DNA of 48,677 nucleotides. Origin: a virus. Numbering within the stretch: position 1 is the first letter of the stretch; each line of letters starts with the position of its first letter. The notes beneath the pieces are model-generated. The model did no database searches. It saw only the letters and a list, made by a program, of their open reading frames with translations, and was not told the origin of the DNA. Both the position numbers and the translations under genes were made by a program. The stretch spans positions 1 to 48,677 of IMG/VR virus record IMGVR_UViG_3300009506_000054. One strand, written 5' to 3'. Shown in pieces: positions 1,566 through 43,361 of the stretch.

Positions 1566-1988
1566 ATGTCAGACGCCAGGTTTCAATTTGACCAAGTCGC
1601 TGTCGTTGGCAATGACCACCCGATAATCCTTTCCTTCTACGATCGAGATTCTGACACTGGTGTGGAGACTCCCGAGGATCTCAGTGACAGGCTATGGACT
1701 TATATGGCCAAGGCCACAGCCTCCGATGCTGATGGTGATGCCATCATTACGTTGACTTCTGCTGGTGGTACTATTACTATTGAGTCTGATGGTAATGCTA
1801 CGAAGAATCCTACCAATGTTACTAATCAGCTGAGCATGATTCTTCCGAAGGCTACTACGGCTACTATGTCTGTCAGAAGGTATACCGAGATTCTCAACTC
1901 CGTGACCGATGATGCCAATGCCTACCTATTCACGAAGGGTCTTGGCGAACTTGCCATGATCATCGAGGACACTGACGGAGGCTACTAA
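1566..1988 (+). CDS. Small beta-rich structural protein, probable fibre/baseplate partner
   Basis: 140 residues, ATG preceded by GAGGATAAG. The N-terminus (VAVVGNDHPIILSFYDRDS) resembles small Ig-like proteins found before fibre genes in other phages; the rest is Thr/Asp-rich beta structure. The stop overlaps the fibre start by one base, indicating coordinated translation. A virion adaptor or baseplate-fibre linker role is inferred from position; no enzymatic motif is present. Confidence 0.55.
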   Translation: MSDARFQFDQVAVVGNDHPIILSFYDRDSDTGVETPEDLSDRLWTYMAKATASDADGDAIITLTSAGGTITIESDGNATKNPTNVTNQLSMILPKATTATMSVRRYTEILNSVTDDANAYLFTKGLGELAMIIEDTDGGY

Positions 1989-4498
1989 TGGGTAGTTACG
2001 TTGACTATGGTCCGAAGATTACCAATGTCATAACGTGGGGATCTAGAACTGTCGTCACGAATAGTCCCAGAATCCATCGCGTCTATGTCACTGGAGGAAT
2101 CGGCGGGACTACGACAGGCGGAGCAGTAGATAGTGTCTTCGGTCGGACTGGTGTCGTTGTTGCTGTGGCAGGTGATTACACGACGGATCTTGTCACTGAG
2201 GGAACTAATCTCTACTACACTGATGGTCGTGTATCTGCCAACACCGATGTTGCGGCGAACACTGCTGCCAGACATACTCACTCTAATATCGCTGTTCTTG
2301 ATGCTCTGACCGATGCAGGATCTGGTAGTGTTATCACTTCTACTGAGCGAACTAATCTGACCAACCACTTGGCACTTGTCAACGAGCATATTGATTGGAC
2401 TAATGCTCCTACTCAAACTGCTAGTTTAGACAAAATCCTCGTCGGCAATGATGTAGATGAAGATGTTGGTTCAGGGACCGACTACATCTACTTCTCAGCT
2501 GGTGGTGTGTCAGACGTTCCTTATATCGGCTTCGACCATTCCAATACTGTGGATGTAGAGGGCTCGTTCTCGATCAATCGGCCAGTAGTGATTAGTGCTA
2601 AACTGACTCTGTCTGGTTCGTCTGCTCAGCTAGCGACTGACAAGGGAATCCATGTCAACACGCTTCAGAACGAGGACCACACTGGAGGGTCTACGACATT
2701 CGATGAGATCAAGTTCACGTTGGGTCGTCTATCAACTGTGCCTGCCATTCAGTTCCACCATGGGGATACTGGTAACTATGGGTATTTCCACTTCAACCGT
2801 GATGTTAGTCTTTCCGTTCTGACTTCTAGTACTGGTGGCATTGCGATCAATAAGCCAGTGACAATTGAGGCTGGTCAGTCGCTGACTGTGAATACTGGTG
2901 CTTCGCTTGTAGTAGAAGATGATGCCGAACTCCAGAAAGATGTCTACGTCAACTCGGCAGGAACAGCTTCTCAGGGATATGTCTATTTCGGTTCTATCTC
3001 TGATCCTCAGGCGGCTTATATTCTTTACGATATGGATAATGACTGGATGACAACCAATGTAGGGATTGAAGCTTCGTGGTTTGATGCTAGATGGGAACTT
3101 GCTACGCTTGGAACTGTCGGCGATCCTATGGTAAGGTTCGGCGATTCTCGCGGATATGTATATCCCGGCGAAACGATCCGTAATCTTACCTGGTCTCGTG
3201 CTAATACTCGGTTCGAGTTTGACTATGATCTTTATGTGGATGGTGATTTCACCGTTACAGGATCTATGTCTACTCACGACCACTCTACAACTGCTCAGGG
3301 CGGGACTATTGATCACACTGATCTGACTACTATTGGGACAAATACTCACGCACAGATTGACTCGCACCTAGCTCTAACCAATGAACATATTGACTGGACT
3401 GCTGCATCTTCCGATTTTTCTACTTCTGGTAAAGTAGCTTCTACATGGACTGGAACTGCGACGGGAAGTTCATTCTTCGCTGATGTAAACCATAGTGTAT
3501 CTGGAACTGCAACTAACACTATTAATGGATTCGACATTGACTATGATGTAGCTCTTGCTGCGAGTTCGATTTATGCTGAGACTATTCGTGGTATTCGGTT
3601 CAGGTATGATATTACCGATAGTGGAGCTTCATTTAATACCTCCACAGTTCAGATCATTGATGGTCGTATCAATGCCAACAGTATCAAGATCAGCTCTACT
3701 AACGGTATGCAGCCGATGTACTATGAGTTTACTAATCCCGCATCTGATCAGCAGTTTGAGAATGGTTTCATGCGGGTCAGGGTTAATGGTGGTACTTCGT
3801 CTGGCCAGTGTATTGCGTTCTACTCTGATGCTACTATTGGCGGATCAATGGATGGTATTGGGTATCGTGGGTATGTTGTTGGGATGGCGTCATCCTCTGG
3901 TTCCACGATTATTGGTGTTCAGGGATATGCCGTCAAAGCTGCTAGCGCTTCTCATGCGGCAATTGTGTCACTAGACGGTGTTGTCACAGGAACTGGTACT
4001 GGGACAGCTAAAGATAAACAGATGGGACTTCGAATTCAGACTCATGCACTTATCCGTGATGGGTCTGTGGTTATTATCTCCGGATCATCTAGTACTCCCA
4101 ATGCTGTGACTACGACTCACATGGACTTCGTCAACAATGGTGGCGAACTCTATGCTGAGGGAAACACTGAGATAGATGGTGAGTTGTTCTGTGATGGGAA
4201 CGAATCCCACTCTGTGTCTGATGAGACTAGTACTTCTGTCAATGCTGGATCTAATACTTATATCATGTGTGATGCTACTTCTGGCAATGTCACTGTTAAC
4301 CTTCCTGCGATCTCCGCTCTAAGTGGAAATAGAGAGTACTTCATCAAGAAGGTAGACTCAGGAAGTAACACTGTGACCGTGACTGCTAACGGTAGTGATA
4401 CTGTCGAGGGCTCTGCATCTGCTCCTGCTCTGACTAGTCAGTATGACTATATCCGCGTCATTGCGGGTAACGGAACTATGTGGTTCATTACTACATGA
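1988..4498 (+). CDS. Tail fibre / receptor-binding protein
   Basis: 836 residues, Gly/Ser/Thr/Asn-rich. Near residue 47 it carries VDSVFGRTGVVVAVAGDYTT followed by a VTEGTNLYYTDGRV segment, a signature common in tail fibres of many siphophages. A HLALVNEHIDWT element occurs near residues 127-138 and again (HLALTNEHIDWT) near 460, suggesting internal duplication. The last about 75 residues (NVTVNLPAISALSGNREYFI, later TMWFITT) match the beta-rich C-terminal module of receptor-binding fibres. Start follows GGAGG and overlaps the upstream stop. It ends the left + strand operon; it likely attaches at the tail tip encoded at 25.8-31.3 kb. Confidence 0.85.
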   Translation: MGSYVDYGPKITNVITWGSRTVVTNSPRIHRVYVTGGIGGTTTGGAVDSVFGRTGVVVAVAGDYTTDLVTEGTNLYYTDGRVSANTDVAANTAARHTHSNIAVLDALTDAGSGSVITSTERTNLTNHLALVNEHIDWTNAPTQTASLDKILVGNDVDEDVGSGTDYIYFSAGGVSDVPYIGFDHSNTVDVEGSFSINRPVVISAKLTLSGSSAQLATDKGIHVNTLQNEDHTGGSTTFDEIKFTLGRLSTVPAIQFHHGDTGNYGYFHFNRDVSLSVLTSSTGGIAINKPVTIEAGQSLTVNTGASLVVEDDAELQKDVYVNSAGTASQGYVYFGSISDPQAAYILYDMDNDWMTTNVGIEASWFDARWELATLGTVGDPMVRFGDSRGYVYPGETIRNLTWSRANTRFEFDYDLYVDGDFTVTGSMSTHDHSTTAQGGTIDHTDLTTIGTNTHAQIDSHLALTNEHIDWTAASSDFSTSGKVASTWTGTATGSSFFADVNHSVSGTATNTINGFDIDYDVALAASSIYAETIRGIRFRYDITDSGASFNTSTVQIIDGRINANSIKISSTNGMQPMYYEFTNPASDQQFENGFMRVRVNGGTSSGQCIAFYSDATIGGSMDGIGYRGYVVGMASSSGSTIIGVQGYAVKAASASHAAIVSLDGVVTGTGTGTAKDKQMGLRIQTHALIRDGSVVIISGSSSTPNAVTTTHMDFVNNGGELYAEGNTEIDGELFCDGNESHSVSDETSTSVNAGSNTYIMCDATSGNVTVNLPAISALSGNREYFIKKVDSGSNTVTVTANGSDTVEGSASAPALTSQYDYIRVIAGNGTMWFITT

Positions 4499-4798: not shown

Positions 4799-5689
4799 TT
4801 AGACGCCGACAGTTCTGATGAAGACAGGTTCGCGGATCGCTCCGGACTCGAGTTTCCTCATTCCCTTGACAAGGATGGTGAAGGGCTTGTCGAGTACGAA
4901 GACTCCGGGACTTTTCATCTTCGGTCCTCGGGACTGGAGGAAGGTCATCATGGATTGGAGTTGTGCGTCTGTGAATCCTGTTCCCACGTTCCCGAGAGGG
5001 ACTCCCTTGTCGTCGCAGAACATGAGCGCACCGAAGAATCCTTCACGTTTCCCGAGTCCAGCAGTGTAGCCGTAGACGCAGACTATCTCCTCGTACATGA
5101 TCTTAACCTTGAGCCAATCTTGAGTACGACTGCCAGGACGGTAGATGCTTCCGACACGCTTGGCAATGATGCCTTCCGCGTTCCGCTCCTTCTCGCGATC
5201 GTAGAGCTTCTGACCAAATCGATGGACCTTGGTAATGGTGTAAACTTCATCGGTGAGAAGAACACCATTCATAAGTTCCTTACGATTAAGAAGACCTTCG
5301 TGCATGATAGGACTATCACCTATCCTAAGAGCATCGAAGAGACAGGCAGTCACGGGATTCTCCTGAACTCCTCGGTAAATCTTGTCCGTGTCCTTGCTGT
5401 GGAATCTGCTGATGATCGACGGGAAGTGAGGAATCCCGTCTTTGAAACAGACCAGTTCCGCGTCGAATACTCCAGAGGTAGAAAGGAAGACTGAGTTCAG
5501 TCGCTTGGGATCGGTAAGTTCGGGGAACTTGTACGTGATATCTCTTCCACTCTTAGAGAAGATAGTGATGGTAGGACTGTTCCACACCATGATAACACGG
5601 ATCCCGTCGTACTTTATCTCAAAGAGATAGTCGATGCCAGGAAGTTCTTCATGATTGTCCTTCTTGGCTTTCATGGGTGTTATGAACAT
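4799..5689 (-). CDS. ATP-dependent DNA ligase
   Basis: 296 residues. Ligase motif I, with the lysine that becomes adenylylated, is EIKYDGIR at about residues 24-31; later motifs include FDAELVCF (motif III), EGIIAKR (motif IV) and WLKVK (motif V), followed by an OB-fold-like C-terminus. This is the compact nucleotidyltransferase-plus-OB architecture of LigD-type and phage ligases, which seal nicks using ATP. Start is ATG 5689 behind GGGAG; two bases separate it from the DUF932 gene. It would serve lagging-strand maturation and repair with the pol I-type polymerase at 37.5-40 kb. Confidence 0.92.
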   Translation of the reverse strand: MFITPMKAKKDNHEELPGIDYLFEIKYDGIRVIMVWNSPTITIFSKSGRDITYKFPELTDPKRLNSVFLSTSGVFDAELVCFKDGIPHFPSIISRFHSKDTDKIYRGVQENPVTACLFDALRIGDSPIMHEGLLNRKELMNGVLLTDEVYTITKVHRFGQKLYDREKERNAEGIIAKRVGSIYRPGSRTQDWLKVKIMYEEIVCVYGYTAGLGKREGFFGALMFCDDKGVPLGNVGTGFTDAQLQSMMTFLQSRGPKMKSPGVFVLDKPFTILVKGMRKLESGAIREPVFIRTVGV

Positions 5690-5691
5690 GG

Positions 5692-6639
5692 TTACGCTCC
5701 CACGGTGACGAGCAGCTTGTCAAGAACAGCTTGCTTCTGACGAGCAGTCTTTCCGAACCACGCGTTCGACAGGCGCTGATCCTGTGTACGCGAGGCCATG
5801 TGATCGGTGTAGAAGGTCACGGCGTTCAGGACGCCCCAGGCGTTCCCGGGAGTAGCACCAGGAGCCTGAGTATAGGCCTGGTACAGATCCTTCATTCGAG
5901 GCGTGAACTTCTTCGGGTCCTTGACCATGTCCATGATCCTGTCGGGAGTTGCCTTGGGGAGCATGATGGGAGCGACGATGGAGACGAACTGAGAGAGCTT
6001 GATCTCATGTTCCACCATCAGCTTCGCCTGTCGCTCGAACTCGCGCATGTCTTCGCGGGCGAGTCCGAGAACCATCTTCGCCTTCTTGATCGCCGCTTTC
6101 CCGAACTTCGATCTGTGGACGAAGCGGAAAGTTCCGGTCTTGTCTCGCAGTGCGGCTGTCAGCGTGTTGTGACAGACCACCCGAATCGAGGTTCGCTTGA
6201 TGAGAAGGGACTTACCCTGTTCGTGAGGACATCCGACGAGAACGTATCCGTCGACTTGGTCCTTGCCGGGAAGGGTGAAGGAAGTGTCGAGGTTCGCGAG
6301 GCCCCAGACATATTTGCCTCCCTTGAGAGAACCAGCAGTCTCGAGGATCGCTTCGCCTGCGTCGAGGAATTCGCGGAAGAACTCGAACGCCTCGGCATTC
6401 TGACTTGGCTTGTAGCGATTCCCACACGCGTCGAGAACTTTGTTGTCGGAGGATCGAACGAGCCAGTAATGTCCTGGGACGACAACGCCATCTCGTTCTG
6501 CAGGTTCACGGATGACGCGCCAGTCGAGGCCTGCTTGGACAAGCATTTCCTCGATGCTCAGGTTGGATTCGACATGAGTTCCTAACCCATGCCATGGCAC
6601 TTCTCCTGTGAAGGCCATTGTTTCTACTTCGTGTGACAT
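5692..6639 (-). CDS. DUF932 / phage-plasmid-like protein
   Basis: 315 residues. The opening (TMAFTGEVPWHGLGTHVE) and the core (IRVVCHNTLTAAL ... FRFVHRSKFGKAAIKKA) are hallmarks of the DUF932 / TIGR03299 family, found widely in phages and plasmids and of unknown biochemical role. The C-terminal TPGNAWGVLNAVTFYTDH segment is also typical. Start ATG 6639 has a strong AAGGAG site 8 bases upstream. It lies between ligase and small early genes; it is relatively GC-rich, like the capsid genes, which suggests high expression. Confidence 0.85.
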   Translation of the reverse strand: MSHEVETMAFTGEVPWHGLGTHVESNLSIEEMLVQAGLDWRVIREPAERDGVVVPGHYWLVRSSDNKVLDACGNRYKPSQNAEAFEFFREFLDAGEAILETAGSLKGGKYVWGLANLDTSFTLPGKDQVDGYVLVGCPHEQGKSLLIKRTSIRVVCHNTLTAALRDKTGTFRFVHRSKFGKAAIKKAKMVLGLAREDMREFERQAKLMVEHEIKLSQFVSIVAPIMLPKATPDRIMDMVKDPKKFTPRMKDLYQAYTQAPGATPGNAWGVLNAVTFYTDHMASRTQDQRLSNAWFGKTARQKQAVLDKLLVTVGA

Positions 6640-35081: not shown

Positions 35082-35744
35082 TTACTCTTCGAGATACCCG
35101 GCAGTCTCGAGAGCGTCCTGAACTGCGCCGATCTTCTTCCGAGCCGAACGGAACTTCTTCAGGTTGACATCGAGTTCGTACTTCTCGACAACGGCCTGAA
35201 GCTCCTTCACACTCATTTCAGAAAGTTCGTCTTCGGTAATGAGTGGAAGGTCGTCCCCGACGACTTTTACTTCCTCTTCGTCCTCATCTTCGTCCTCTTC
35301 CTCATCTTCGTCTTCGTCCTCATCTTCGTCCTCTTCCTCGGTTTCAGCGGGAGTGTAGTCCTCAGCAGAGAGGTAGGCATCGACCTTGTTCCTCAACTTG
35401 CCTTCCCGCTTCTCAGTGCTGACTACTGCAACGAATTCACAGTCGATCAGCTCATCGAGGTCAAGTTCCATCTCAGAGTCAGGAACTTCGATCTCACAGG
35501 CTTCGAGCAGGCTTCGGAGATTGAAGAGAGCCTGAGGCTGAAGTGAGCAGTTCCAGAACACCTTGCCCTTTTCGGTCTGACCAGTGAAGGCAAGGTATTT
35601 CTTCCCAGAGTCCTCACCAGTCTTGACCTCGACTTCGACAATGGTACACATCCACTCACCCTCAGGGACGACTCCGCCAGACTCAACTCCAGTCATGTCA
35701 ACTGTGACTACCCGACCACTCTTTTTCTTCCTACGCTTCGCCAT
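35082..35744 (-). CDS. Single-stranded DNA-binding-like protein (DUF669 type) with acidic linker
   Basis: 220 residues. N-terminal part (VVPEGEWMCTIVEVEVKTGE; KKYLAFTGQTEKGKVFWNC) is an OB-like domain of the DUF669 family, usually found beside Sak-type annealing proteins. Residues about 132-160 are almost entirely Asp/Glu, encoded by GAC/GAA repeats. The C-terminus (LSEMSVKELQAVVEKYELDV ... KKIGAVQDAL) resembles a SAP/HeH DNA-binding motif. It likely coats ssDNA and recruits partners through the acidic stretch. Start overlaps the Sak4 gene end by 14 bases. Confidence 0.75.
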   Translation of the reverse strand: MAKRRKKKSGRVVTVDMTGVESGGVVPEGEWMCTIVEVEVKTGEDSGKKYLAFTGQTEKGKVFWNCSLQPQALFNLRSLLEACEIEVPDSEMELDLDELIDCEFVAVVSTEKREGKLRNKVDAYLSAEDYTPAETEEEDEDEDEDEDEEEDEDEDEEEVKVVGDDLPLITEDELSEMSVKELQAVVEKYELDVNLKKFRSARKKIGAVQDALETAGYLEE

Positions 35745-36597
35745 TGGTCTTAGCCTTTCCTTGTAGTGTGTCCATGATCCGATCGTAAGTCGGGTCTACC
35801 AATACTCCTGGGAGTTTGATATTCTTCGGCTTACGAGCCTTAGTGGTGTAGATTGGATTAGGTCCCAATCTGAGACAATACTGAGTCCGAGCAACCTCCT
35901 TCTTCTTCCCCTTCACACGTTTGATAGTTACCTTCCGTCTAATGAACGTGCAGCCAACCACCGCAACCTCAGCTCCGAGATGTCCTGCGATACTTGGCGA
36001 CAGACGCGGACCGACTTCTGGATCAAGCTGAACCTCCGGATCGTCCACCTCAGTTTCGCTTATTCGGTCCTGCGCCAAAAAGACCACCTCGATACTGGGA
36101 AGATCCCTTACGTTGGTGATCCACATCTTCATGAGTGAAGCAAGTTGTCCCCACTCACGCTTAGTTACTACACCCCACTCACCCGCTCGAGCTGTGTCCT
36201 TTTCATTATCGATTAGGATTTTCTCAAGTCCAACCTGTTGAAGCTGAGTGATAGTATCTATCACGAGAGTCTTGTATTTTCCGGGATTCTTAACTAACCA
36301 CCAATAAGCAGTTTCGAAGTCATCCCAAGTTTCTACTTCAAGAACGTCGATTCCATCCACATCGCAGATACTATCTGTACCTTGGTCCTTGACATCAAAG
36401 AAAAGCATTGGCTTAGGGAATGTCCCAGACAAGGTCGTCTTTCCTGTCCCCGCCCTACCGTAAAACACAAAGCTACGATCTCGATGGATCATACTAACGG
36501 GCTTTACGTTTAGTTCGAGGTTTGCTTTTTCCGCTGGTTTTCTTTTTGCCTTTGTCTTGGTAACTTTCTTTTTCGTCTTTTTTCGGACGGGTGACAT
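35731..36597 (-). CDS. Sak4-like RecA-fold ATPase (single-strand annealing recombinase)
   Basis: 288 residues. Walker A GRAGTGKT at 47-54 and Walker B LVIDT at 111-115 of an AAA_24 / Sak4 domain, with QDRISETE downstream. Sak4 proteins promote strand annealing with a cognate SSB, here the next gene. ATG 36597 is supported by a strong GAAGGAGAAGGGG site; this gives a Lys-rich N-terminus (KKTKKKVTKTKAKRK) and a 104-base overlap with the nuclease gene. ATG 36492 right after the nuclease stop is an alternative without a good site. Confidence 0.85.
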   Translation of the reverse strand: MSPVRKKTKKKVTKTKAKRKPAEKANLELNVKPVSMIHRDRSFVFYGRAGTGKTTLSGTFPKPMLFFDVKDQGTDSICDVDGIDVLEVETWDDFETAYWWLVKNPGKYKTLVIDTITQLQQVGLEKILIDNEKDTARAGEWGVVTKREWGQLASLMKMWITNVRDLPSIEVVFLAQDRISETEVDDPEVQLDPEVGPRLSPSIAGHLGAEVAVVGCTFIRRKVTIKRVKGKKKEVARTQYCLRLGPNPIYTTKARKPKNIKLPGVLVDPTYDRIMDTLQGKAKTNGEA

Positions 36598-37537
36598 ACC
36601 CCTTCTCCTTCACGAAGTCGGCATCGCCGCCGGTGAGTGTTGCTCTACAGATTGGCTCGAAGTCACACCAGCCACAATGCATTCCAATGTTTCGATCTTT
36701 CTTCTTTCCATGACCTTCCATCATCTCAATAGCTGTATTGATGAAGTCTCCATAAACTTCAGCAACCACAGTAGATTTGACGGGAGTGTAAACTCGGAAG
36801 AACCAGTTACCAAGATTTCTCTCGGCTTTAGCTATTAGGTCAGCAGCATTCCCGTCTGTGGGAAGTCTGTAATGATCTCTTGTTCTAGCAACAACTGATG
36901 GTAGAGTGTCGATTGATCTTGTACTAAGATCCCCGCTTTTAAGACGTTGAGGAATAGTGGGAGATTTGGACCTAATGTAGTTCCACATAATACCGTCAAA
37001 GTCTTCAATGCCAAGTTCATGACAGGCTTGGAGATAAACACATGACTGCAAATTCCTCCATCTATCATCGTCGTTTGGAGCACGACCGAAGGTTTTATGT
37101 TCACCTAGCCAGCGGAGTCCATTAGACGTTCGGAGAAATGCATCGATCTTCATAACGAATAGCAATTCCTCGCCTATAGGAAGTTCAATCCAATGCTCAG
37201 CATATCTCCTATTATACTTAATTGGCTCAGTCTCATCTTCTTTGTAGTAGCTAAAATAGGCTCTCATAATATCACCGACATCTTGGATAATATCCCCGTA
37301 TTCTTCAATCTCTGCTTTAAACAACTTTCCTTGCTCTTTAGCATATCTTGCCAGAACGCGGAAAGGGTCACGGCCTTTTAAGTCAGCTTCTAACATATCG
37401 TGAACCATTGTACCAAACTGAAGAGGACGAGCCTTTCGTTTCTTTTCAAGTCTTTGAACGTACCGACAGTCATACATGAACCGACACTGTCTCCATTTCT
37501 TTACCTTAGACTGAGAGAACTCAAATCTATCACTCAT
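36494..37537 (-). CDS. PD-(D/E)XK exonuclease of the RecB/Cas4-like group with predicted Fe-S cluster
   Basis: 347 residues from ATG 37537, which overlaps the polymerase stop (ATGA). Catalytic residues are seen as His46 (GTMVHDML), Asp132 (MKIDAF) and Glu146-x-Lys148 (LGEHKTF), followed by Gln/Tyr of QSCVYLQA. Cysteines C18 or C24 near the N-terminus and C288-x2-C291-x5-C297 near the C-terminus match the iron-sulfur staple of AddB/Cas4 nucleases. A Lys/Arg-rich tail ends the protein. With Sak4 and SSB it forms a lambda-Red-like exonuclease/annealase set for recombination-dependent replication. Confidence 0.88.
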   Translation of the reverse strand: MSDRFEFSQSKVKKWRQCRFMYDCRYVQRLEKKRKARPLQFGTMVHDMLEADLKGRDPFRVLARYAKEQGKLFKAEIEEYGDIIQDVGDIMRAYFSYYKEDETEPIKYNRRYAEHWIELPIGEELLFVMKIDAFLRTSNGLRWLGEHKTFGRAPNDDDRWRNLQSCVYLQACHELGIEDFDGIMWNYIRSKSPTIPQRLKSGDLSTRSIDTLPSVVARTRDHYRLPTDGNAADLIAKAERNLGNWFFRVYTPVKSTVVAEVYGDFINTAIEMMEGHGKKKDRNIGMHCGWCDFEPICRATLTGGDADFVKEKGYVTRPKKDEKESYQDKGKKKTSGKSKPRTKRKAR

Positions 37538-40041
37538 GCTGAAAGATACTCCTCTAGTGACACACCCAAACTCCAAGGCCCTATCGCTGCTTCACCCTCG
37601 ATTGGAACTCTTAGAGTAATTTCCAGTCTGTCTAGAATCTCCGGCCACTTCATAATCTCCAAATATCTAGAGACTACTTCCTCGACATGTTCTTCCTTGC
37701 ACTCAAAGATTACGGCATCATGAACTGTTCCACAAGGTCTGACTTTATCGAGACCAAATTCCCGTCTTAGTTGTAGAGCGCACATCAAGTTCCAGTCACT
37801 AGCAAAGCCCTGAACTGGAGAATTGATTGCTTGACGTAAAGCTTCCTTATATTCATAGGTTTCACTGCCATGAGTAAATACCGCTGGAAGTCTACGTTTA
37901 CGCCCACTAAGTGTGGTAACATATCCATGCATCTTAGCAAACTTCTGTTGACGTTCATGCCAAGGCTTAAGCCCCGGATAAAGTTCGAAGAAGGCAATAC
38001 GACTTGCCTGAGCTTCTGCATCGGTAACTTTTACTCCGTAATTATCCCTAGCATATTGGATAAACTTTCTCCACCACATTCCGTATAGATAGCCAAAGTT
38101 AATAGCCTTAGCCTTCTTACGATATTCTTTCCACTTAGGATTAATCTCAATGCAGACCCTGTGACCAGCTTTGGTTATGATGTCAATAGCATCACCGTAG
38201 GGAATTCGATTCTTAGTTTTCTTTAATTTCTGTGCTGTCTTGATCACTAAGTCAGGAACTGCCCCTGATCTACCAATCTCCCTTGTGGCAGTTTTCCAGT
38301 GTACGTCTTCTCCAGTTTCAAAAGTGTGAAGTAAGACTTCATCACCACTATACTCTGCTGCTAACCTCATTTCAACTTGAGATAAGTCAGCTTCAACAAG
38401 TACCCATCCAGGAGGAGCAGTTATCAACGATCTAATTCGTGGATCCCTAGGCACCTGTTGGAAGTTTGGGTGTTCACAGCTAGGTCTGCCAGTAACTGCG
38501 CCGTGAAGTTTAAAACTAGGATGAAGTCTTCCATCAACTAGGAATGGTTTCCAGCCTTCGATGAAGAAGGAATGTTGCTGAGCTGCTCCTCTGAAGCGAA
38601 GCAGTGCTTCCGTTACTGGATGATCTAATTGCTTTAAGACTGACTCAGCTGTGGAAGCAGCCCCACCCTTGGTCTTGGCGATTATTGGTAGTTCAAGTTT
38701 ATCGAAGAGAAGATCCGCAATTTGTTTAGGAGATCTCCAGTTAATTCCTTTACCCCACTTATCTAGTTCTTCCTTTGCCTTAGCAAGTTCTTCTAATAGA
38801 TAAGCTTCGGCATCATCCATCTTAGCTTGGTCAATGAAGACTCCGTGATACTCTGCCTCTGTAAACCAGTGTGAGCATGGCATGAGGATTTCTTCGAAGA
38901 CGGCTTTGACGTTTCCTTCCTTACCAAGCATCTTTCCAAAAACAAATCTTAGCTTTCTAGTGTAGAGCAGATCTTTACAATGGTAGATATAAGTAGTATC
39001 CCAGTCTGCTCTAGTGGGATCTACGTCATAATCAATTGCACCGAAGTAGACCTGTGATAGTTCCTTAAGACCATGCCTTGAATTTTCGTCTAATAGATAA
39101 TGAGCAAGCATAGTATCAAAGTCAATTCTCCAATCTACACCATAATGAACTTTCATCCACAAAGCATCATAAATGCCATTGTGGGCTACGACGAAACAGT
39201 CCTGAAGATGGTGACTGATCTGATCTATCATACTTTTAATTCTGTTATTAGAGAAAGGCTTACAATCATAATGATGGATTGGAATTGACCATTGAGCTTT
39301 TCTAGTTCCAAACCCTATTGCTGTTACTACGGGTTTATCGTAAAGGTGAGAAGGTTTCTTCTTTGAACCTACCCCATATCGCCAAGGATAGAGGCAAGAA
39401 GTTTCGAGATCAAAAGAAACAGTTCCCTTGAGAGCGCGAAGCATCTTACGAAAAGTTTTTCTGTCCCTAACCTCAATAGGATTAAATCCGTCTGTTTCCG
39501 GCATTCCACCACCATTGACAATCTCTCTTAATAGAGCAATGTCCGATCGGAGTGGAGCTTCGTTTCGTGGATCTCTTAAGGCAAAGGCAGGATGAAAGGT
39601 TGGAAGATATACGACACCATCTTTTTCAATTGGCTTTCCTCGTAATTTCTTAATTCCCTTTTCTCCTAAGAGTGACTGGCAAGGAGTGTTTCCTAAAAGC
39701 AGGATGAATTTAGGTTTGATTCGTTCTATCTGATAGTCAAGCCAATCACGACAGGCTATTATCTCAGTCTTTCTTGGGGTTCGATTATCAGGAGGACGAC
39801 ATGAAACCGCATTACAGATGAAGACATTTTCGTCGTCGAAGCCATTCTCCTCCAGTATCTCTCTAAGCAATTGGCCAGCCTTACCCATAAAAGGCTTACC
39901 AGTTTTTTCTTCCATCGCACCGGGAGCTTCGCCAACGATCATTACGTCAGCTTTAAGATAGCCGTGTCCTAAGACACAAACTCTGTCAGTTGTCTGGTGC
40001 AACCTACAGTTAGTGCACTCAGGATCTCTGATTAGCTTCAA
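37534..40041 (-). CDS. Fusion of family-4 uracil-DNA glycosylase and DNA polymerase I
   Basis: 835 residues from TTG 40041, placed by the GGAG site 7 bases upstream. Residues 1-178 are a type-4 UDG: IVGEAPGAMEEKTGKPFMGK at 35-54, NAVSCRPPDN at 78-87, HPA at 150-152, and C9, C12, C81, C97 in the spacing of the [4Fe-4S] ligands. Residues about 195-400 are a 3'-5' exonuclease with FDLET (D211, E213), AHNGIYD and YHCKD. The family A polymerase follows with EADLSQVEMRL (motif A), KAINFGYLYG (motif B) and TVHDAVIFE (motif C, HDA instead of HDE). No 5' nuclease domain. It is the replicative polymerase; the UDG domain could sense or remove uracil. Confidence 0.93.
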   Translation of the reverse strand: MKLIRDPECTNCRLHQTTDRVCVLGHGYLKADVMIVGEAPGAMEEKTGKPFMGKAGQLLREILEENGFDDENVFICNAVSCRPPDNRTPRKTEIIACRDWLDYQIERIKPKFILLLGNTPCQSLLGEKGIKKLRGKPIEKDGVVYLPTFHPAFALRDPRNEAPLRSDIALLREIVNGGGMPETDGFNPIEVRDRKTFRKMLRALKGTVSFDLETSCLYPWRYGVGSKKKPSHLYDKPVVTAIGFGTRKAQWSIPIHHYDCKPFSNNRIKSMIDQISHHLQDCFVVAHNGIYDALWMKVHYGVDWRIDFDTMLAHYLLDENSRHGLKELSQVYFGAIDYDVDPTRADWDTTYIYHCKDLLYTRKLRFVFGKMLGKEGNVKAVFEEILMPCSHWFTEAEYHGVFIDQAKMDDAEAYLLEELAKAKEELDKWGKGINWRSPKQIADLLFDKLELPIIAKTKGGAASTAESVLKQLDHPVTEALLRFRGAAQQHSFFIEGWKPFLVDGRLHPSFKLHGAVTGRPSCEHPNFQQVPRDPRIRSLITAPPGWVLVEADLSQVEMRLAAEYSGDEVLLHTFETGEDVHWKTATREIGRSGAVPDLVIKTAQKLKKTKNRIPYGDAIDIITKAGHRVCIEINPKWKEYRKKAKAINFGYLYGMWWRKFIQYARDNYGVKVTDAEAQASRIAFFELYPGLKPWHERQQKFAKMHGYVTTLSGRKRRLPAVFTHGSETYEYKEALRQAINSPVQGFASDWNLMCALQLRREFGLDKVRPCGTVHDAVIFECKEEHVEEVVSRYLEIMKWPEILDRLEITLRVPIEGEAAIGPWSLGVSLEEYLSA

Positions 40042-40504
40042 CGAGGTCTCCGTTATTTCCTTCGACTATATAGCCATTAGCCATTAGTCGGTACACTCGA
40101 ATGTCATGGTCTAACAGGTAGATGATTGGGGCTGTATCCCTATACGTAGACTCAAAGTAGACCGCGTCTACCCCAGCGTCAACAATCGCCAAAGCACAGT
40201 TCATGCATGGAGAGTGAGTGACATAAAGTATCAACTCTCCGCCATCGGTATCCGAAGATGGTGCAGGAAGATGAGCAAGGGCATTTGCTTCGGCGTGGAG
40301 GGCTCGTAGACAGGCCTGAGTCTCCGGATGAAGGATACAGCCCACATCGACACAATGAGGAGTATGTGAGGGGGCGCCGTTATATCCGACAGAAAACTGA
40401 CGTCCGCGAACAGCAACAGCTCCGACACACAAGCGGGGGCAAGTACCGCGTCGTGCAACGACTTTAGCCATTTCCATCCACATATTATGTCGGGTTATCC
40501 TCAC
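40019..40504 (-). CDS. dCMP deaminase
   Basis: 161 residues from GTG 40504 with AAGGACGGAG upstream (ATG 40483 is an internal alternative). Zinc site HAE at 70-72 and PCMNC with C100 and C103; VGYNGAPSHTPHC is characteristic of deoxycytidylate deaminases. It converts dCMP to dUMP, feeding thymidylate or modified-pyrimidine synthesis. Extra Cys/His residues (C22, C26, H50, C51, C56) recall the second zinc site of the T4 enzyme. Its 3' end overlaps the polymerase start by 23 bases. Confidence 0.92.
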   Translation of the reverse strand: MRITRHNMWMEMAKVVARRGTCPRLCVGAVAVRGRQFSVGYNGAPSHTPHCVDVGCILHPETQACLRALHAEANALAHLPAPSSDTDGGELILYVTHSPCMNCALAIVDAGVDAVYFESTYRDTAPIIYLLDHDIRVYRLMANGYIVEGNNGDLVEANQRS

Positions 40505-40571: not shown

Positions 40572-41333
40572 TTAGAATACATCGGCCACGTCTTTCTCAT
40601 AGACATGGAAGGAAAAGATGACCTGGGAGAATCTTCCTGGAGTACTTTGAGTCTTCCCACAAATGAACTCCAGAAGTTTGACAGCCAGCCAGACATCATT
40701 CTGCCAGTGAGTCACAAAGTCACAGGACCTCATTACATAAGTCATGTGAAGCTCACCATTTCGGTTGATAAGATGCCATCCAATCGAACAGGGAACTCTA
40801 CGCTTGCCAAGTCGCTCGCTATCCTGTTGTGGATCCCACATAGCGATATAGAGCTGACGTGAGTTGGAGTTTCTTCGAAGTTCTCTGATAACTCGAAGGA
40901 CTTGATCATTACAGGCGAATCGCTCTCCGTAGGAATAAGCGAGTCGGATAGGATCTGACTTAACCATTTCATTAGCAGTCTCCATTGCTTCGGAAAGGGA
41001 GACCCCGGAAGGAAGTGGCCGACCGTCAAACTCGATGAAGTTGCTCCAGTCCATCTTGTCATCGGATCTTGTACGCCAGGCCGTCCCAAGGGGGGAAGGA
41101 TGACCCATGATAGCCTTCACGCGGTCTCCCCATTCCGTTTCTGCCCAAGGCTGAGTAGGCTTCAACTGACCAAGTCTTGGATTAATCACTGTATAACCAT
41201 AATTGAGAAGCTCCAATGTCGGGAAAGAACCTTCCTTGTCCTGCATCATGGTGTTGTCGACTCTGATACCCATTTCCTTAAGGTCTCTTGAGATCTCACC
41301 ATGGGCTTCGTGGAAATCCTTGAAGATTCTCAT
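40572..41333 (-). CDS. Thymidylate synthase family protein with dCMP-hydroxymethylase signature
   Basis: 253 residues. Catalytic Cys182 lies in RRVPCSIGWHL, followed by YVMRSCDFVTHWQNDVWLAV (200-219) and FSFHVYEKD (240-248). Aligned to thymidylate synthases (RSxDxxxGxPFN), the Asn that reads dUMP is Asp213; T4 dCMP hydroxymethylase has the same ND (RSNDVVFGFRNDYAW). The enzyme would add a one-carbon group from methylene-tetrahydrofolate to C5 of dCMP or dUMP; the Asp favours cytosine. Start ATG 41333 overlaps the stop of the upstream paralogue (ATGA). Substrate is inferred. Confidence 0.85.
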   Translation of the reverse strand: MRIFKDFHEAHGEISRDLKEMGIRVDNTMMQDKEGSFPTLELLNYGYTVINPRLGQLKPTQPWAETEWGDRVKAIMGHPSPLGTAWRTRSDDKMDWSNFIEFDGRPLPSGVSLSEAMETANEMVKSDPIRLAYSYGERFACNDQVLRVIRELRRNSNSRQLYIAMWDPQQDSERLGKRRVPCSIGWHLINRNGELHMTYVMRSCDFVTHWQNDVWLAVKLLEFICGKTQSTPGRFSQVIFSFHVYEKDVADVF

Positions 41334-42145
41334 CGCTTGGCTCCTCTGAATCCTGAGTGGTGCTTACGAACATACTTCTGCAATCTGGTAAGTGTCTTCT
41401 CGTCAATCCTTCTGTGGGCATCTAGTCCCACTCGCTTTGCTTGCTCGAACTTTTGAATCCCGTGCTCGAATTCTGGACAAACATATCTACTTGTCCATTT
41501 TACAATCCAATCCCAGAAATGGGGATCTTCCTCCCTGAGTTGGTTCAACATCTTGATTGGCTTATGAATATGCGGGATAATGGTTACGAAGTACATGGGG
41601 TGGATAGTGATATTAGCAAATGAAAAATAGATGTTTCTTATGGGAACGTCAGTGAAGTCGAAGTTCGGAAGCAAGATATCTCGAAGGAGGATGAGGTCGG
41701 CCGGAAACTTTTTGAAAAACTCAGTCGTACGGTAGAAGACAGTGACATCTGTCCAACCGTCACACTGGCGCTTACGACCAGGAATCCACGATAAAACCAC
41801 TGCTTGGATACATGGCCCCATAGTACTACCGCGTTTAGATGTTTTATTTGGATCATTTTTGAGGAGGTGGTTATAGCAATGGAAGGCAACACTTCCATAT
41901 TTAGCCTTCTTTTTTCGAAGTTCCCACAGCATCGCTGCTGCATCGATGGAGTCCTGTACGACATAGCCCTTCTTAAGCATAGTCATCTTAGACTTCGTAA
42001 ATCCACAGTCTTCGATCTCGAAGTCATTGAGGAGTGGGCCTTTAAAAAGAACGGTGTGATTGTTGATGATCTTCCTATTGCCACTGAAGAAGTCGGCTGG
42101 ATAAAACGACAATTCAATGGCTGCCTTGACAAATTGCTCCTTCAA
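41330..42145 (-). CDS. Divergent thymidylate-synthase-fold protein (candidate)
   Basis: 271 residues from TTG 42145, with GAGGAG upstream and overlap with the preceding stop. No simple family match, but the order of elements follows thymidylate synthase: MGPCIQAVVLSWIPG with C112 at the catalytic position, VTVFYRTTEFFKKFPADLIL with R139-T-T-E142 for RSxD and Asp150 for the base-reading residue, and SFANITIHPMYF with H182 near the HxY motif. The flanking gene is a clear member of the same family, so duplication is plausible. The extra about 70 residues at the C-terminus are basic and helical. Function unknown; a role in pyrimidine modification is inferred. Confidence 0.6.
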   Translation of the reverse strand: MKEQFVKAAIELSFYPADFFSGNRKIINNHTVLFKGPLLNDFEIEDCGFTKSKMTMLKKGYVVQDSIDAAAMLWELRKKKAKYGSVAFHCYNHLLKNDPNKTSKRGSTMGPCIQAVVLSWIPGRKRQCDGWTDVTVFYRTTEFFKKFPADLILLRDILLPNFDFTDVPIRNIYFSFANITIHPMYFVTIIPHIHKPIKMLNQLREEDPHFWDWIVKWTSRYVCPEFEHGIQKFEQAKRVGLDAHRRIDEKTLTRLQKYVRKHHSGFRGAKR

Positions 42146-42798
42146 TAGTTACTCCTCTGGCGGAATTTGTTGACCTCGCTCTTCTTCCAGTACATACGAA
42201 AGATCTGGTCTGCGTCAAGTCCCATATGAACGAAGACTGAGATGAGCGCGGGAATAGTTCCCTTCATATGGCTAAAAAACCTCGGTACATCGACGAGCTG
42301 ATGCGTTTGTTTCCAAGGCCGTTGCTTAAGACAGTTCGATGCACACCCAATCAGATAAATAACCTCGAAGCAACCTGGCTCAAGATCATCTCCTTCAGCC
42401 CAATTACATAAGACTACGAGCTTGTCCTCCTCATCAGGGTCTACGTCAATAATTTGGTCCGAGGTGATGCCAGCGAGCAAGTGTGCCTCCACAATGAAGT
42501 GGAGAGCGTCGGCGAGTTCCTCGAGCACGTGGTTCTTTAACTCGGGATGGATGCGATAGGCTTCACACGCCTCAGTCAGTTCCTCGGTCGCACGCCAGAA
42601 GAAGTCCTTCAGCCGAGCCTGCCCGTGTCTGTCGTGGATGTCGACCGGGCAGTCCTGCGTGTGGCAGAGACCGTTCTTGACCTCGATGGGAATGTACTTC
42701 TCCATTAGCGAGTGCTGTCTGGCAAAGATGAGATCAAGCCGATCCTGCTCGGAGAAGTTAGTGGGAATCACGTCCCCGCTAATATCATCTACGTTCAT
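42142..42798 (-). CDS. All-alpha NTP pyrophosphatase, dimeric dUTPase/dCTPase-like
   Basis: 218 residues, ATG 42798 with AAAGGAG upstream. Metal-binding motifs E73-x2-E76 (TEELTEACEAY) and E94-x2-D97 (LEELADALHFIVE), plus a C-terminal YWKKSEVNKFRQRSNY, match the dUTPase_2 / MazG-like superfamily. It would hydrolyse dUTP or dCTP (or both) to the monophosphate. In phages with modified cytosine such an enzyme removes normal dCTP; with the deaminase and UDG it would keep dUTP low. Overlaps the kinase stop by 14 bases. Confidence 0.8.
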   Translation of the reverse strand: MNVDDISGDVIPTNFSEQDRLDLIFARQHSLMEKYIPIEVKNGLCHTQDCPVDIHDRHGQARLKDFFWRATEELTEACEAYRIHPELKNHVLEELADALHFIVEAHLLAGITSDQIIDVDPDEEDKLVVLCNWAEGDDLEPGCFEVIYLIGCASNCLKQRPWKQTHQLVDVPRFFSHMKGTIPALISVFVHMGLDADQIFRMYWKKSEVNKFRQRSNY

Positions 42799-43273
42799 GA
42801 GTCAATGCTCCTTTCACCATTGCTACGACTAAGTCCGTTTGTTCGTACATGGTATAAACGATATTGGCAAAATTGATACCGACATTATCATAGATAGCAA
42901 GAATCTTATCATGGTGACGTTCTATCATTTGAAGATGGAATTGATTATCCGTTGGGGAAGGTTTATGATCCTCAAGGGACCTTAACGCGCGACAATATAT
43001 TATAAGGTCATTGCGAGCTATAAAACGGTCCATAAACTCGTCGGGAATATCAGGGTCACTACGAAGGATACCATAGACCGATTGGGTAAGAATGGGATGA
43101 CGGTCAATGATCATTCCGTCTATCCTCTCATAAATTCGAAGTTTGGCTAATAGCCCTTCCCAATCAGCTGGTCGTCCTTCCTTTTCCTTGATAGGCCATC
43201 CTGTGGCATTGTGAATTGCGAGGGCGAGAGTTGACTTACCACAGTTGTCGGGTCCTTCCAAGATTATGTTCAT
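42785..43273 (-). CDS. P-loop nucleotide kinase (dNMP/thymidylate kinase-like)
   Basis: 162 residues from ATG 43273 with AAAGGA upstream; the longer frame starts inside the promoter and is rejected. Walker A GPDNCGKS at 7-14 in the MNIILEGPDNCGKSTLALAI start, a DRH at about 56-58 (GMIIDRHPILTQSVYG) like thymidylate-kinase DR(Y/H) motifs, and a RALRSLEDHKPSP lid-like segment. It would phosphorylate a deoxynucleoside monophosphate, perhaps the product of the two synthase-like enzymes. First gene of the - strand operon. Confidence 0.82.
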   Translation of the reverse strand: MNIILEGPDNCGKSTLALAIHNATGWPIKEKEGRPADWEGLLAKLRIYERIDGMIIDRHPILTQSVYGILRSDPDIPDEFMDRFIARNDLIIYCRALRSLEDHKPSPTDNQFHLQMIERHHDKILAIYDNVGINFANIVYTMYEQTDLVVAMVKGALTHERR

Positions 43274-43289
43274 TTCCCAGAATCCTTTC

Positions 43290-43337
43290 GGTTGACGTTG
43301 ATGACTACAATATATAATATTGAGTGCGTCGTCAACC
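43290..43337. promoter_or_regulatory. Dyad-symmetric overlapping divergent promoters
   Basis: GGTTGACG (43290-43297) and CGTCAACC (43330-43337) are perfect inverted copies 32 bases apart and serve as -35 boxes for both strands. On the + strand TTGACG, spacing 17, TAATAT (43315-43320). On the - strand TTGACG (43335-43330), spacing 17, TATTGT (43312-43307). The two promoters occupy the same DNA, so polymerase can bind only one way at a time. Confidence 0.75.
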
Positions 43338-43361
43338 AATGAATTTCATGGAGGATACCGA

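Follow-up and report, generated by a model that had tools for sequence, protein, structure and literature searches.

How does a DNA polymerase that carries its own uracil-DNA glycosylase (UDG) escape being stranded on the abasic sites that this glycosylase creates? The question is raised by one gene in the stretch of viral DNA analysed here (IMG/VR record IMGVR_UViG_3300009506_000054, positions 1 to 48,677; the whole 48,677 nucleotides are called the window below), whose family-A DNA polymerase (PolA) was described in an initial annotation as bearing an intact-looking Fe-S UDG at its N-terminus. The question can be tested by comparison, since related polymerases carry live, cluster-only or dead UDGs in the same gene order.

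The gene and its product

The UDG-exonuclease-PolA fusion is encoded by an 835 amino acid open reading frame at positions 37534–40041; the plus-strand reading of this interval contains stops throughout, which places the gene on the minus strand. It starts with a TTG codon that has a GGAGA motif 5 bases upstream and is the sole possible start that puts the CxxC pair discussed below inside the protein. No start codon lies among the 8 preceding in-frame codons, and the nearest relative, the polymerase of contig L088, has the same kind of start (MSLKLKRDPEC).

Pfam finds a UDG domain (E = 8e-35), then a 3′–5′ exonuclease domain (DNA_pol_A_exo1, 1e-10), then DNA_pol_A (1e-72). The exonuclease domain (38917–39483, minus strand; PF01612) retains D211, E213, D292 and D357 in invariant alignment columns, and the polymerase domain (37573–38916, minus strand; PF00476) retains D552, R641, K645 and H774-D775, so the protein has the catalytic acids of a proofreading family-A polymerase in both parts. 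It is assigned to phrog_17, a broad phage polymerase family. The AF2 model is confident in all three domains (pLDDT 93.9, pTM 0.90), and a fold search of the PDB with the whole protein returned polymerase matches only among the best 50 listed.

Family-4 identity and completeness of the UDG domain

The match of residues 9–162 (39556–40017, minus strand) to family-4 UDGs is far beyond chance. The domain scores 156.9 bits on the NCBIfam UDG_fam4 model TIGR00758, above its curated cut-off of 125.3 (it falls below the Arch_udg equivalog cut-off, 162 versus 250); Thermus thermophilus UDG (1ui0) aligns with it over 153 residues at 50% identity and E = 8e-40, and the T. thermophilus and T. maritima family-4 structures match it with E about 1e-39. 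This is the single UDG match in the window record; none of the records tested has a second, and the match falls in a polymerase-length frame.

The initial annotation had picked out four cysteines spaced like cluster ligands and had proposed aligning the active site with the T. thermophilus enzyme; that alignment shows no residue loss. Cys9 and Cys12 (the CxxC pair, 40006–40017, also kept in contigs L088, L050 and L014), Cys81 (in NAVSC, 39799–39813, with the uracil-recognition residue Asn77) and Cys97 (39751–39753) lie opposite the four cysteines of 1ui0 and 1vk2, all on the minus strand, and thus occupy the [4Fe-4S] ligand sites. Family-4 enzymes are defined by a motif A of the form GE(A/G)PG and a motif B that starts with HP and ends in Arg (PMC10359453), and the window UDG has GEAPG at residues 37–41 (39919–39933, minus strand), which includes the catalytic Glu38, and HPAFALR at residues 150–156 (39574–39594, minus strand). 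PF, CNAVSCRPP and NRTP are found as well, so the GEAPG, NAVSCRPP and HP motifs first read from the sequence are confirmed in alignment with family-4 enzymes. Glu38, Asn77, His150 and Arg156 are the counterparts of E52, N91, H178 and R184, the key residues named in the family-4 relative UdgX (PMC10359453). Membership of UdgX itself was rejected: the score is 120.4 against a cut-off of 189.95, motif A has Ala where UdgX has Gln (GEAPG, not GEQPG), and the KRRIH loop is absent.

TIGR00758 scores fall below the cut-off for the polymerases of Pseudomonas phage Almagne (120.5), SPO1 (105.1) and contig L028 (42.4). Almagne, like Serratia phage Serbin, is a cultivated relative, and polymerases of the L003 and L028 types carry dead UDGs. 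The phiLo polymerase has all key residues yet reaches only 74.8 bits, so the family-4 score alone is no clean test. With its ligands and active site complete, the window UDG is unlikely to be a relic, as had been argued, unlike the corresponding domain of SPO1, which has no cluster cysteines and reads QENPF at motif A.

Distribution of the fusion

Viral contigs were searched by polymerase-region motifs, with UDG motifs not required and hits ranked by full-length score. This gave 68 distinct polymerases whose N-terminus is not cut short; the UDG is complete in 33, retains its cysteines beside a damaged active site in 11, and shows neither in 24. A second search by UDG motifs, which is biased toward complete domains, added further complete fusions. 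The UDG-PolA fusion is thus neither new nor rare in phages, and the window polymerase belongs, with its complete UDG, to an already known family of fusions. The impression that a complete domain is something unusual does not survive, since many viral PolAs carry one. Relatives in bacterial genomes were set aside, as the best 80 listed match mainly outside the UDG and resemble ordinary host PolA. Subscription journals aside, we found no paper devoted to a phage PolA with an intact UDG beyond that on PaBG (below). Inteins (Pfam Intein_splicing above cut-off), most of which carry HNH or LAGLIDADG endonuclease-like domains, split four of the fusions (L058, L121, L163 and L164) within their polymerase part.

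Live, cluster-only and dead domains on related polymerases

The polymerase tree was built on the exonuclease-polymerase part alone, with the UDG columns excluded; this tree and that of the UDG domains are quick trees with many long branches, in which the deeper placements are unsure. The window PolA groups with those of L088 and L050, whose UDGs are complete, and L058, which keeps the cysteines and has lost one catalytic residue. They belong to a supported clade of 42 rows, 36 of them classified: 5 are complete, 5 are cysteine-only and 26 have neither, so 31 of the 36 have lost catalysis and kept the domain. Excision is thus dispensable to the fusion architecture. The three UDG states require 17 changes on the whole polymerase tree, a count that cannot by itself separate gain from loss; because rows outside the window clade are mostly complete, repeated loss of the catalytic residues within it is the simplest reading.

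On the UDG tree, the domains of the window clade cluster together with support 89 and separately from the stand-alone viral UDGs. Since the window UDG groups with the polymerase-borne UDGs of its clade, it was by this tree inherited with its polymerase, and a recent swap-in of a stand-alone UDG is rejected.

Rates were compared in pairs whose polymerases share at least 72% identity; because these pairs are non-independent and dS often reaches saturation, it is the contrast between classes alone that is usable. The median UDG/polymerase dN ratio is 0.82 for complete members (62 pairs) versus 1.65 for degenerate ones (91 pairs), and UDG dN/dS is about 0.10 versus 0.16; in complete members dN/dS is 0.10 for the UDG and 0.12 for the polymerase. 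Judged by these ratios, complete UDGs keep roughly to the slow pace of their polymerases, and degenerate ones evolve faster with purifying selection still acting. The degenerate UDG of the L028 group, modelled separately, gives a pLDDT of 83, and its top PDB match is the family-4 structure 1ui1 (E = 7e-11). Given this fold match and the dN/dS of about 0.16, the domain outlasts its catalytic activity as a folded unit, and a surviving non-catalytic role is indicated.

Gene neighbourhood and base modification

The polymerase gene is preceded by a dCMP deaminase gene whose 3′ end overlaps its start (40019–40504; PF00383 4e-18, phrog_174), a thymidylate-synthase (TS)-family gene (40572–41333; PF00303 4e-13), a gene for a conserved protein, P6, that accompanies the TS-like gene when records are compared (41330–42145), a dUTPase_2/MazG-like pyrophosphohydrolase gene (42142–42798; PF08761 2.5e-9, phrog_12184 3e-26) and a nucleotide (thymidylate-type) kinase gene (42785–43339; phrog_761 9e-10). 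It is followed by genes for a Cas4-like PD-(D/E)XK exonuclease (36494–37576; PF12705, phrog_1218) and a Sak4-like single-strand annealing ATPase (35731–36597; phrog_124), all on the minus strand. Elsewhere, a DUF932/phrog_1221 protein gene (5692–6639, minus strand) adjoins the gene for an ATP-dependent DNA ligase (4799–5689, minus strand; PF01068 2e-26), and an 836 amino acid open reading frame at 1988–4498 on the plus strand matches neither Pfam nor PHROG.

The dUTPase-like and dCMP deaminase neighbours had been taken as a hint of active uracil control. The genes are real, but the hint fails: the order kinase, (dUTPase), P6, TS-like, dCMP deaminase, polymerase, Cas4-like exonuclease, Sak4 is common to complete and degenerate members, and because dead and live domains have the same set of nucleotide-metabolism genes beside them, these genes are no evidence of UDG activity. 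Raw counts suggested a link between dUTPase and a complete UDG that is absent from independent pairs; where paired relatives differ in UDG state, with few of the pairs informative, that state showed no association with the presence of either dUTPase or the TS-like gene.

The TS-like protein has Cys182, and Ser183 and Asp213 at its base-selecting positions, where uracil-type enzymes have His and Asn, respectively. Asp at the site of Asp213 is a mark of cytosine substrates (PMC8670742, PMC5175136); it is found in 56 of 61 aligned TS-like members and in the CMP hydroxymethylase MilA and the thymidylate synthase entry 1njc, while SPO1, LysYB1 and M6 have Asn. These residues point to dCMP as the substrate, and because of them the phage more likely makes modified dCMP than hydroxymethyl-dUMP. 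The SPO1-type hydroxymethyluracil module, with Asn at the base-selecting site of the hydroxymethylase, does not fit Asp213, and the analogy to hydroxymethyluracil phages drawn in the initial annotation is therefore unlikely. Several relatives also encode ThyX, which together with the Asp213/Ser183 signature makes cytosine modification plausible. M6-type thymidine hypermodification was rejected, the M6 polymerase having no UDG.

P6 occurs in 50 of the 60 records with a TS-like gene and in none without one, and conserves Cys112, Tyr138-Arg139, Glu142 and Asp150. The gene at its position in MW202455 is annotated 'pyrimidine hmase', which profile comparison did not confirm; a second thymidylate-synthase fold was rejected for P6, as profile comparison was non-significant (0.8% probability) and there was no PDB match.

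Proposed function of the UDG domain

We favor, at a probability of roughly 0.6, the reading that the window UDG would be a working family-4 [4Fe-4S] glycosylase tethered to replication, over an older non-catalytic role. Held at the replisome at the N-terminus of the phage replicative polymerase, the UDG would flip uracil, whether it came from dUMP misincorporation or from cytosine deamination, out of the DNA of the phage and cleave off the base; the abasic site would be handed to a host AP endonuclease, after which the polymerase would refill and the phage ligase would seal. Host enzymes would have to cut the abasic sites because the window record has a ligase and, for the two AP endonuclease families tested across it, no AP endonuclease. 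The underlying older role, either to hold DNA or to help the polymerase fold, would explain why the domain is retained when catalysis is lost. The sequence itself establishes what the domain is, that its ligands and active site are complete, that it was inherited vertically and that it is constrained; cluster binding, excision, tethering, transfer of the abasic site to repair and the second role are inferred. In favor of this reading are the ligand and active-site residues, the TIGR00758 score, the AF2 model, the inheritance of the UDG with its polymerase, its evolution at 0.82 of the polymerase dN and its being the single UDG match in the record; the second role draws on the fold and dN/dS of the degenerate domains. 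Weighing against an active UDG are the 31 of 36 losses in the clade, the AP endonuclease result and neighbours that do not track UDG state. It also counts against excision that template uracil removed ahead of the fork leaves an abasic block.

A first alternative is that the UDG is mainly structural, holding DNA or boosting processivity, with catalysis a by-product or inactive in the window PolA too; vaccinia UDG D4 has such a DNA-holding/processivity role. The persistence of the UDG fold under purifying selection in polymerases that have neither catalysis nor cluster speaks for this explanation, as does the place of the domain in the broad family phrog_17, but it leaves unexplained the full ligands and active sites of the window, L088, L050, L014 and many sister polymerases, as well as the slower evolution of complete domains, and we consider it unlikely. 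An even less probable alternative is a uracil sensor, in which the UDG would bind template uracil and stall the polymerase, excision not being the point; archaeal family-B polymerases stall on template uracil in this way. A sensor would spare the fork from abasic blocks, and the recognition residues are complete, but motif A is the family-4 GEAPG rather than the UdgX GEQPG, the KRRIH covalent-trapping loop is absent, and no sequence feature prefers binding to catalysis. That the substrate is a modified base, such as 5-hydroxymethyluracil arising by hydroxymethylcytosine deamination in a cytosine-modified genome, would suit the dCMP-type Asp of the TS-like neighbour and its want of the uracil-type His, a pattern tied to cytosine-modified phages, but is very improbable, as complete UDGs are also seen with no TS-like gene in the flanks searched, UDG state does not track that gene, and the motif residues match ordinary family-4 enzymes.

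Because close relatives have repeatedly given up the catalytic residues and retained the domain, the fusion probably does more than uracil excision. The fuller picture, in which one polypeptide would both remove uracil and resynthesise DNA at the fork of a modified-cytosine phage, within a lineage that repeatedly and independently converted the repair enzyme to a non-catalytic domain, is tentative and on balance doubtful. The chief value of the locus is that live and dead UDGs occur side by side in one family, on polymerases that are otherwise similar, which lets a non-catalytic role be told apart from excision.

Comparison with known systems

Stand-alone family-4 UDGs (1ui0, 1vk2) share the motifs and ligands of the window UDG at 47–50% identity and differ in having no polymerase fusion. 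A published counterpart is DNA polymerase I gp205 of Pseudomonas phage PaBG, of a jumbo phage group, which has the same UDG-exonuclease-polymerase order; its UDG was modelled on 1ui0, and uracil removal was predicted by its authors (PMC7412058). Complete UDGs on PolA with similar neighbours are also found in Caudoviricetes ctfzr933 (MW202455), which differs from the window phage in also encoding ThyX, and in IMG/VR contigs such as L088, whose polymerase is 56% identical to the window PolA. The polymerase of Thermus phage phiLo (L008 4959–8483) carries at its N-terminus a UDG in which every key residue aligns, has a solved structure (PDB 9qhs), and differs in its length of 1175 amino acids and its 34% UDG identity to the window. 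By the numbering of the annotated protein, the deposited 9qhs chain starts at residue 34, beyond the first two cluster cysteines (Cys23 and Cys26), and the cluster may therefore not be visible in it. Where templates contain uracil, thermostable polymerases of this family, phiLo's among them, may be of use for copying. As the initial annotation noted, Bacillus phage SPO1 and its relatives also have a UDG-derived N-terminal domain on PolA; the SPO1 polymerase (gene 31) differs from that of the window in the residues given above and in adjoining a dUMP hydroxymethylase with Asn at its base-selecting position.
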